Translations under genes and position numbers: made by a program | Shown: positions 2,982-22,373 of the stretch, piece after piece | Position numbering within the stretch: the first letter of the stretch is position 1 | Layout: each line of letters begins with the position of its first letter | The notes under the pieces: model-generated | What the model was told of the DNA's origin: nothing | Seen by the model: only the letters and a program-made list of their open reading frames with translations | The model's database searches: none | Assembly: GCA_029862125.1 (NCBI GenBank) | Contig: JAOTXY010000006.1 | Location: forward strand, 1 to 64,000 | Source: Gammaproteobacteria bacterium | GTDB taxonomy: Bacteria > Pseudomonadota > Gammaproteobacteria > GCA-001735895 | DNA length: 64,000 bases | Reading direction: 5' to 3'

Positions 2982-3058
2982 GCGCTCGTAGCTCAGATGG
3001 ATAGAGTGTTGGCCTCCGAAGCCAAAGGTCGTGGGTTCGATTCCCGCCGAGCGCGCCA
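2982..3058 (+). tRNA. tRNA-Arg (anticodon CCG), encoded CCA
   Basis: GCGCTCG acceptor pairs CGAGCGC; anticodon arm TTGGC-CTCCGAA-GCCAA; TGGGTTCGATTCCCG T-arm; ends GCCA. Confidence 0.95.
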
Positions 3059-19059: not shown

Positions 19060-20616
19060 CTAGCCGGGACGATCGCGGATTTCGAAACGCCGTGCCGCTA
19101 TCAGAATCAGCAACAATGCCGGAATGCCAAGAATTGCAGTGACCAGGAAGAAGCTGGGGTACCCGATCGCATCGACCATCGATCCCGAGTACCCGCCCAA
19201 TACCTTTGGAATCAGGGTCATCAACGAGGTAAAGATAGCGAACTGCATCGCGGTGAAGGAGACATTGGTCAGGCTCGACAGGAAGGCGACGAACGCAGCG
19301 CTCGCAATGCCCGCCGACAGGTTATCGGCAGAGATTACGACGTAAAGCCAGAACATATCGTAGCCGATGCTTGCCAGCAGCATGAACAGCAAATTGGTCG
19401 CGGCCGCGAGCACCGCGCCCAACAGCAGGACACGCATCACGCCGAAACGAAGCGCGAGCAATCCCCCGAGGAAACCGCCGGCGATAGTCATCAACAAGCC
19501 GAAGGTTTTGACCACGCTGGCAATTTCGGTTTTGCTGAAACCGAGATCCTGGTAGAAGACGTTTGAAATAACTCCAAGAACGATATCGGAAATTCGATAA
19601 AGTCCGATCAATGCGAGCAATATCCAGGCCAGTGACCAGCCGTAACGACTGAAGAAATCACGAATCGGCATCAGGTAGGTACGCTCCACCATCGCATAAC
19701 CGACAATGCCGGATTTGACCAGCACTAATGCCAGCAGCCACATAACCAGCAATGCCAGCGCAAGACGCAGGGATTCCACCAACAGCGCGGCCAGGAACGG
19801 GTTGGCAAGGACCGCACCCAGAGATGACTTGACACTACCGGCAATATCCCCCGAAAAAAAGAAAACACCGACGAATCCCCCTATCGCGACCACGAACATC
19901 AGTAAAAATTGTAAATAGTCCTGATTGGTACCAGCAACACTGTCTCTCTCTGCTCTTTGCGGTTCATCGATTACCAGTGTGGTGGCGACACCTATCAGCA
20001 TCGCAAGTGCCATTGCGCAGTAGGTCCACTGCCATGCCTGGTAGTCATAGGCTTCGCCACTGGTGCCAAACCAGTCGGCGAGGTATAGCGAGCCTGCACC
20101 CGCTACCAGCATACCGATACGATAACCAGCGATATAGGTTGCAGACATCATTGCCTGTAATTCAACTTCGGCCGATTCGATACGATAGGCATCGATGACG
20201 ATATCCTGGGTTGCCGAGGAGAAACCGAGTAAAATCGCGGCCAGCGCCATCAGGGTCAAACTCGATTGATTCGCCGCGGGGTCAATCGATGCCATGGCAA
20301 GGATTGCAACAATGATCGCGAATTGCGCAGTCAATATCCAGGCGCGCCGGCGACCGAGCATCCGGGTCAACCAGGGCAAGGGTAATTGATCAACCAGGGG
20401 CGCCCACACGAATTTGAACGAATAGCCAAGCGCGGCCCAGCTGAAATAAGTCACCGCGGCACGTTCAGCCCCGGCTTCACGCAGCCACAGGCTCAGTGAT
20501 GAGAAGATAAGCAACAGCGGGATGCCGGCTGAAAAACCGAGGAATAGCATCGTCACCACACGTCGATGAAAAAATAACCTGAGCGTGGAAACGGATTGCA
20601 GATTGCTCTGCTGCAC
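19060..20616 (-). CDS. AmpG-like MFS permease
   Basis: GFSAGIPLLLIFSSLSLWLREAG; about 12-14 hydrophobic segments; SSATQDIVIDAYRIE motif. Confidence 0.85.
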   Translation of the reverse strand: MQQSNLQSVSTLRLFFHRRVVTMLFLGFSAGIPLLLIFSSLSLWLREAGAERAAVTYFSWAALGYSFKFVWAPLVDQLPLPWLTRMLGRRRAWILTAQFAIIVAILAMASIDPAANQSSLTLMALAAILLGFSSATQDIVIDAYRIESAEVELQAMMSATYIAGYRIGMLVAGAGSLYLADWFGTSGEAYDYQAWQWTYCAMALAMLIGVATTLVIDEPQRAERDSVAGTNQDYLQFLLMFVVAIGGFVGVFFFSGDIAGSVKSSLGAVLANPFLAALLVESLRLALALLVMWLLALVLVKSGIVGYAMVERTYLMPIRDFFSRYGWSLAWILLALIGLYRISDIVLGVISNVFYQDLGFSKTEIASVVKTFGLLMTIAGGFLGGLLALRFGVMRVLLLGAVLAAATNLLFMLLASIGYDMFWLYVVISADNLSAGIASAAFVAFLSSLTNVSFTAMQFAIFTSLMTLIPKVLGGYSGSMVDAIGYPSFFLVTAILGIPALLLILIAARRFEIRDRPG

Positions 20617-21395
20617 TAGACTGCGGGCTCCAGGTCATAGTCCATAATTAACGGCGCATGATCGGAAAAGCGCTGATCTTTATAAATCCTTGCCCGCCGA
20701 ATTCGGTCTTTCAATCCGGGTGTGACTATCTGGTAATCGATACGCCAGCCGACGTTCTTGTCCCAGGACTGTCCCCGGTTCGACCACCAGGTGTATTGTT
20801 CGTCGCGGTTATCGACAACGCGAAACGCGTCAATATAACCCACGCGTTCGAATAAATCGGTCAGCCAGGCACGTTCCTCGGGTAGGAACCCGGAGTTTTT
20901 CTGGTTGGAGCGCCAGTTTCTTAAATCGATATTCTGATGCGCAATATTCCAGTCACCACAGATGATGAATTCACGGCGTTTACGTCGCAGCGATTGCAGA
21001 TGTAGCATAAAACTTTCAAGAAACCGCCACTTGGATTCCTGGCGGTGATCACCTGACGAGCCCGACGGCGCGTAGAGTGAAATGATCGACAGGTTGCGGT
21101 AGCGATATTCGAGGTAACGCCCCTCGTTATCGAACTCGGATTCGCCATAACCGCGAATCACCTGCAACGGCCGCTCCCTGCTGTAAATCGCCGTTCCGGA
21201 GTAGCCTTTTTTCAATGCATCGTAGTAGCTACAGTAATAATTACGGGGATGAAATATCGGCTGCTCCAGCTGCTCGGTATGCGCCTTGGTTTCCTGTACA
21301 CAAATGAAGTCCGCACGCTGACGGGGTAGCCAGTCGAAAAAGCCCTTGCGCGCCGCTGCACGAATACCGTTGGTGTTTACTGAGATCACGCGCAT
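20616..21395 (-). CDS. xthA: Exodeoxyribonuclease III
   Basis: MRVISVNTNGIRAAARKGFFDWLPRQRADFICVQETKA; SDHAPLIMDY C-terminus. Confidence 0.93.
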   Translation of the reverse strand: MRVISVNTNGIRAAARKGFFDWLPRQRADFICVQETKAHTEQLEQPIFHPRNYYCSYYDALKKGYSGTAIYSRERPLQVIRGYGESEFDNEGRYLEYRYRNLSIISLYAPSGSSGDHRQESKWRFLESFMLHLQSLRRKRREFIICGDWNIAHQNIDLRNWRSNQKNSGFLPEERAWLTDLFERVGYIDAFRVVDNRDEQYTWWSNRGQSWDKNVGWRIDYQIVTPGLKDRIRRARIYKDQRFSDHAPLIMDYDLEPAV

Positions 21396-21454
21396 CTGAA
21401 ACTGCTACCAATATTCAATTCTGGCGATATGATACATGACTTAAGATATCCGAC

Positions 21455-21723
21455 TAGGGCCTGTTAACACTAATCCAATGGGCTCTGTTGCGTCTGAAAA
21501 AGCGCCAATTGAGGCGCGAGAAGCGTAGTTTGGTCATTCCAAATGAGCGACGAGCAACGAAAAGTGGCGCTTTTTCAGGCGCAACCCTTCGGGCTGGGGT
21601 TATTTTTTCACCCAGCGGCGTTATCATTCGCTCATGTAGAGTGACTACATCACGCTCATTCTGCCTTGCTGGATGAAAAAATAGTCCCAGCAGAGCCCAT
21701 TGAATTAGTGTTAACAGGCCCTA
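21455..21723. mobile_element. MITE-like non-coding element, 33-bp terminal inverted repeats, two internal hairpins
   Basis: Left TIR tagggcctgttaacactaatccaatgggctctg (21455-21487) vs right cagagcccattgaattagtgttaacaggcccta (21691-21723), 32/33 complementary; inner stems 21489-21507/21565-21583 and 21593-21616/21668-21691. Confidence 0.85.
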
Positions 21724-21734
21724 ACGATTCGCCC

Positions 21735-22373
21735 ATGCAAGCTTACCAATCCCGTTTCGTCGACTACTGCCTGCAGCGCGGCGCCCTCAGCTTTGGCGAA
21801 TTCACGCTCAAATCCGGTCGCGTCAGTCCTTACTTTTTCAACGCCGGGATTTTTAATCGTGGCGCCGATCTCGCGGCACTTGCCGGATTCTATGCCGATG
21901 CGATTCAGCACAGCAAAATTGATTTCGACCTGCTGTTCGGCCCTGCTTACAAAGGTATACCCCTGGCCGCGATTACCGCGAGCGCATTGTACCAACAACA
22001 TCAACGCGACATTCCCTACGCGTTTAACCGCAAGGAAGCCAAAGATCACGGTGAAGGAGGAAATACAGTGGGCGCCGAAATCACGGGTCGGGTGATGATT
22101 ATCGACGATGTCATCACCGCCGGAACCGCAATTCGGGAATCAATCGAGTTAATCGAAACGCTCGGTGCCGAGGTTTGTGCCGTCATGATTGCACTTGACC
22201 GACAGGAAAAAGGTTCGAGAGATCTCTCGGCAATCCAGGAACTGGAGCAACAGGGATTAAGCGTCATCTCGATCATAAAACTCGACCATATCCTCGAATA
22301 TTTGCAAACCAGTGGGGATAGCAAACATCAGGCAACCATTGAAGCTTACCGGGCCGAGTACGGAATCGACTGA
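21735..22373 (+). CDS. pyrE: Orotate phosphoribosyltransferase
   Basis: [44 protein letters not shown] motif [13 protein letters not shown]; the upstream in-frame extension in the ORF track derives from the MITE-like element. Confidence 0.95.

Follow-up and report, generated by a model that had tools for sequence, protein, structure and literature searches.

The closest described relatives of the element presented here are insertion sequences (IS) of the IS427 group, IS5 family (NF033580, transpos_IS5_3; e.g. ISPsp10 and IS1248), which share with it a terminal inverted repeat (TIR) of 18–20 bp, the duplication of TA and the Y-TA-R target. The marks of this group include two overlapping ORFs, a length of 830–865 bp and a 2-bp duplication, as in an IS trapped in Paracoccus (PMC3281130), and for ISPsp10 it is TA that is duplicated on insertion (PMC4133298). 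Unlike these IS, our element has no transposase gene, an interior that does not match them and an outer stem of 33 bp. Being short, flanked by TIRs and devoid of an ORF of its own, it belongs to the non-autonomous transposable elements known as MITEs.

Several other short bacterial repeats are comparable. Correia elements (CREE/NEMIS) also carry TA at both ends, often lie upstream of genes and form a stable stem-loop, but according to the literature they have other ends, another host range (Neisseria) and a different internal layout. ERIC (IRU) sequences are likewise short, intergenic and palindromic, placed at TA in many genera and lacking their own transposase; however, they are about 127 bp long and form one imperfect palindrome, whereas the MITE has about 265 bp, two inverted modules and the ends of an IS group, and the two sequences appear unrelated when compared by eye. 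Hairpins of Correia and ERIC elements have been reported to be processed by RNase III or to act as terminators within transcripts. The CIR repeats of Caulobacter and Brucella, built of two long arms and a linker (PMC2229807), recall the paired modules of our element, but they are described without terminal repeats and with a GANTC motif, while our element has an outer stem that closes both arms. The RUP of Streptococcus pneumoniae is, as here, a MITE tied to an IS by its ends and TA target, although the IS is IS630-Spn1 and the length 107 bp. Finally, the Tn3-derived miniature elements (TIMEs) include MITEs of a 260-bp class in which parts of the core are conserved and the transcript can fold, but they have Tn3-type ends, a 5–6 bp duplication and usually a single copy (PMC4133298). 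Against this background the block preceding pyrE is a relic MITE of the IS427 type and belongs to a widespread family whose conserved double-hairpin core is unusual. Elements of this kind are known, while the layout and breadth of the family appear to be undescribed in searchable papers: our literature search, with most subscription journals outside its reach, found no paper on such a family, its core or its ends.

An inverted-repeat block in front of pyrE

The window, i.e. the whole analysed stretch of 64,000 nucleotides (genome G000), contains a 269-bp block at 21455–21723, with TA at both outer ends, placed between a divergent gene, which we take to encode an xthA-like exodeoxyribonuclease, and pyrE. 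The only tRNA gene in the window is that of tRNA-Arg (ccg), at 2982–3058. The features of the locus are as follows.

20616–21395, minus strand: exodeoxyribonuclease gene, divergent, upstream host gene (ORF list)
21428–21433, plus strand: TATGAT, candidate native −10 box of pyrE, upstream of the element (consensus only; kept in relatives)
21455–21456, no strand: left TA of the target-site duplication (G019/G020 have the empty site CGAC-TA-ATAAG, the window CGAC-TA-element-TA-ACGA)
21455–21474, plus strand: left IS427-like end, TAGGGCCTGTTAACACTAAT (matches both ends of the G165 IS at 19/20)
21455–21487, plus strand: outer stem, left arm, 33 nt (32/33 with 21691–21723; covarying pairs in the family)
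21487–21585, plus strand: module 1 (arms 21487–21510/21562–21585, loop 21511–21561)
21529–21543, plus strand: inner hairpin of module 1, TTTGG-TCATT-CCAAA, within the 51-nt loop
21585–21593, plus strand: mini-hairpin CCC-TTC-GGG between the modules (fold; family alignment)
21593–21691, minus strand: module 2, the module inverted (arms 21593–21616/21668–21691, loop 21617–21667)
21635–21649, minus strand: inner hairpin of module 2, TGTAG-AGTGA-CTACA, within the module 2 loop
21691–21723, plus strand: outer stem, right arm (pairs with 21455–21487)
21704–21723, minus strand: right IS427-like end, the left end repeated in inverted orientation (comparison with IS ends)
21722–21723, no strand: right TA of the target-site duplication (G019/G020 comparison; TA on both sides in 56/65 copies with GGGYCTGT ends)
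21735–22373, plus strand: pyrE (orotate phosphoribosyltransferase), downstream host gene (ORF list; pyrE matches in the genus)

The initial annotation had described 33-bp TIRs (32/33 complementary), terminal TA and two inner stem-loops ending 11 bp before the pyrE ATG, and all of these are present. The two stem-loops proved to be of equal geometry, each with 24-nt arms and a 51-nt loop: the first stem, originally given 19-nt arms (21489–21507/21565–21583, 18/19 paired), lengthens to 24 nt, and the second has 21/24 positions paired. A single stem-loop module, present twice in opposite orientations, makes up the interior of the element. Module 1 of the window scores 103 bits (E 2e-19) with our covariance model R1, and in several genomes (e.g. 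G211, G318, G284 and G375) the module-1 model also matches the adjoining module 2 on the opposite strand. The proposed folding of both nucleic acids was carried out, giving −151.9 kcal/mol (z −16.2) for RNA and −88.1 kcal/mol (z −15.6) for DNA, with 0 of 200 shuffles folding as well; for a sequence of this composition such a fold is far more stable than chance would give.

The TATGAT box is kept in relatives both with and without the element, and if it serves as the −10 box the element would lie in the 5' leader of pyrE. The suggestion that the element itself carries promoter or RBS function did not hold, as the scan of 21300–21800 yielded no sigma-70-like promoter passing its rule and the conserved box lies upstream of the element. 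A stable structure of about 270 nt between the promoter-like box and the start codon may lower or modulate pyrE expression. The predicted false N-terminal extension is real: the mechanical ORF 21666–22373, with a TTG start, reaches back into the element, and the insertion explains both this extension and the long pyrE leader.

Insertion and decay at the pyrE locus

A pyrE match was obtained in 29 of the 31 genomes of the genus, and in most of the genus the element is absent from this gene. The comparison of relatives for empty sites, also proposed earlier, provided them in G019 and G020, where CGAC/CAAC-TA-ATAA contains a single TA; since TA is duplicated in the window, the element at pyrE is an insertion. 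Genome G008 has the same element in the same place, 97% identical, while G030 and G006 (loci L031 and L033) retain as a scar only the outermost 20 bp at the right end. In the flank tree G030 groups with G000 and G006 falls outside G008, which places an identical scar in two non-sister lineages. It could have arisen by deletion, twice independently, at a 2-bp GA microhomology, by recombination, or as an assembly artefact at the palindrome. Another locus shared by G006 (L009) and G008 (L025) retains a solo left end only, 23 bp in the former and 29 bp in the latter, which suggests that the element commonly decays to solo ends. Most of the unpaired TIRs in G050, G058, G060 and G064 represent solo ends or decayed MITEs.

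A cis-regulatory RNA leader of pyrE, an attenuator or riboswitch that merely resembles a transposon, would account for the position between a conserved promoter-like box and the ATG, for the very stable fold and for the terminator-like sites, of which 21300–21800 contains two, one per strand. As the origin of the element it is nevertheless already contradicted by the empty sites, and its absence from pyrE in most of the genus, the copies at unrelated loci in other genomes, the lack of any Rfam 15 match up to E 5 in 21300–21900 and the lack of an excess of G-T pairing make it extremely improbable. The identification as a MITE stands on the copies elsewhere, the empty sites at orthologous pyrE loci and a plausible source of transposase.

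Dispersed copies, conserved core and covarying stems

The window genome has a single copy of the element, but the search for further copies called for by the initial annotation detected many, in relatives as well as in distant genomes. In Candidatus Thiodiazotropha endolucinida 145 and 140 TIR-end matches correspond to about 140 pairs, and in G252 the 52 and 48 matches correspond to about 50 copies. Family members are about 265 bp long and dispersed at unrelated loci. The loop-core pattern, scanned over named genomes, gave at least 119 stretches; among the matches listed most are from Gammaproteobacteria (Thiodiazotropha, Thiohalobacter, Pseudomonas, Azotobacter, Alcanivorax, Nevskia, Porticoccus and others), besides a few from Zetaproteobacteria and one from a contig that carries the label Rhodothermales. 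In that last contig (JANQSQ010000111.1, L089) the core sits at the extreme end of 1.7 kb, and contamination or transfer may be responsible. The one-module covariance model matched 60 of 369 gammaproteobacterial genomes, representing 51 of 270 genera, so the family is found in about one in six Gammaproteobacteria sampled. No match was found in phages, and the core pattern had none in 5,426 E. coli genomes. A covariance model and a name for this repeat, common in Gammaproteobacteria and without a description in the literature searched, should be of use to genome annotators.

The loop core is kept in 28 of 31 aligned copies, a figure that is partly a sampling effect, as both the pattern and the model were built on the module-1 core; module 2 and the stems are less subject to this bias. 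One copy (L183, G050, C37 135783–136217) harbours another hairpin-rich repeat inside the loop of module 1.

Complementarity of the stems is maintained through sequence change. Across the 31 aligned copies both partners have changed at least once in 60 of the 75 predicted pairs, and in 28 copies below 80% identity Watson-Crick pairs make up 90% of cells, compared with 61% when partners are shuffled among copies. At 69 of 84 base pairs at least two Watson-Crick types occur among 42 copies that are less than 85% identical, and all four types are used across genera. The same 42 copies contain 92 G-T and 78 A-C cells, one fixed G-T pair set aside. Selection on RNA of one strand is expected to raise G-T well above A-C; since G-T is hardly commoner, the constraint appears to act on DNA rather than RNA. 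This conclusion is moderately supported, because a weaker test, on a larger, redundant set of 91 copies, shows a clearer surplus of G-T over A-C. Most probably complementarity is kept because the element needs folded DNA (hairpin or cruciform) for its transposition or survival.

Two other explanations of the maintained arms were considered. Were the family kept for an RNA function, as hairpins processed by RNase III or terminating transcripts, with transposition secondary, one could understand the conserved loop sequences, the terminator-like hairpins in both directions and the restriction of copies to intergenic positions: 0 of 63 copies lie inside ORFs of at least 100 aa, compared with 622 of 1260 random placements (49%). 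The G-T test would moreover be blurred if both strands were used equally as RNA. On the other hand, the near parity of G-T and A-C cells in diverged copies, the lack of preference among tandem, convergent and divergent gaps and the recurrent loss at pyrE speak against such a function, and we regard it as quite unlikely. The second explanation is an ordinary MITE in which template switching between arms, and not selection, restores complementarity. Such quasipalindrome correction occurs in bacteria, and arms that are near perfect even in single copies would agree with it. We nevertheless judge it unlikely, since the loops are conserved though unpaired in the stem, the arm separation of 51 or 187 nt is far for this correction, and all four pair types occur across genera.

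IS427-type ends and candidate transposases

The single-contig genome G165 contains five copies of an 811–812 bp IS with 20-bp ends TAGGGCGTGTTAACACTAAT, identical to the end of the window MITE at 19 of 20 positions. Its two ORFs match DUF4096 (PF13340) and DDE_Tnp_1 (PF01609), and both match NCBIfam NF033580, IS5 family, each alone slightly below the model cut-off. Related IS are found on plasmids; that on an Enterobacter cloacae plasmid has ends TAGGGCCTGTTAACACTA, both of which agree with the window MITE over its first 18 bases (18/18). The target is also shared: among 56 MITE copies with intact ends Y precedes the left TA in 52 and R follows the right TA in 53, and the IS likewise inserts at TA. 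Judging by these sequences, an IS427-group transposase presumably moves the MITE in trans. When the MITE interior was compared with seven IS sequences only the ends aligned, save for one 26-bp match at E 0.88, and this comparison did not support derivation of the interior from an IS by deletion.

Searches with generic family models found no NF033580 match in the window genome, which like G008 and G006 is incomplete, and no convincing IS427 transposase in Thiodiazotropha (about 140 copies), Thiohalobacter, G252 or G050. As neither a second copy nor an IS427-type transposase was found in the window genome, the window copy is probably immobile. No genome was found in which IS and MITEs share exactly the same 20-bp end, the G165 IS being one base off. 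Longer TIR-flanked intervals at loci from Thiodiazotropha and others hold ordinary genes and no transposase, and the TIR pairs of G056, G211 and G409 are all MITE-sized, with no IS found. Other candidate sources were rejected: an IS5_3 element of G056 has ends unlike the MITEs of that genome, and neither IS630 (PF13358) nor DDE_Tnp_1_2 (PF13586) gave useful matches in high-copy genomes.

Mobilization by a different transposase, e.g. of the IS630/Tc1-like type, which is TA-specific too, would reduce the IS427 end match to convergence. The TA duplication alone would fit IS630 as well, and several high-copy genomes provided no IS427 partner. Given the 18–20 bp end match combined with the Y-TA-R target, and no DDE_3 match in G057 or G058, we consider it very unlikely. 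It is highly probable that the window element is a decayed-lineage copy of a MITE with IS427-type ends, presumably mobilized in trans, inserted at pyrE and with an interior most likely kept for DNA folding. In the proposed course of events an IS427-group transposase acting in trans would have cut or copied the element by its 18–20 bp ends, insertion at a CTAA target in the pyrE leader would have taken place in the common ancestor of G000, G030, G008 and G006, and a folded DNA form would be needed at some step of transposition or element survival.

The two-module core is combined with ends of at least three kinds, GGGCCTGTTNACAC, AGAGCCTGTCTGTGAATAA and AGGAAACACTGATCTATTC, the second in G056 and the third in Abyssibacter. 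Genome G391 has an IS with an IS5-family transposase (NF033581) and ends similar at 18 of 22 positions to the Abyssibacter MITE ends AGGAAACACTGATCTATTC; in the MITE-bearing genomes themselves no IS with AGAGCCTGTCTGTGAATAA or AGGAAACACTGATCTATTC ends was found, and exchange of ends is accordingly treated as hypothetical. MITEs are usually defined by their ends, with the inside drifting, whereas here the inside is kept over 51 of the 270 sampled genera and the ends differ. One tentative, rather doubtful possibility is that the core, rather than the ends, persists as the selfish unit, having swapped the ends of different IS5-type transposases, with the conserved loops as a folded-DNA signal across Gammaproteobacteria. 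A conserved core with differing ends makes a role of its own for the MITE core in transposition testable.

Genome G165 also contains other short elements (L245–L247, L255) whose ends resemble GGGCCTGTTAACACCA and whose interior is unrelated (CGCGGCCTGGAGGCCGCTCCTAC). At 560311–560332 (L252) of the same genome lies a 22-bp perfect palindrome, TAGGGCCTGTTAACAGGCCCTA, which is two ends joined with nothing between them.
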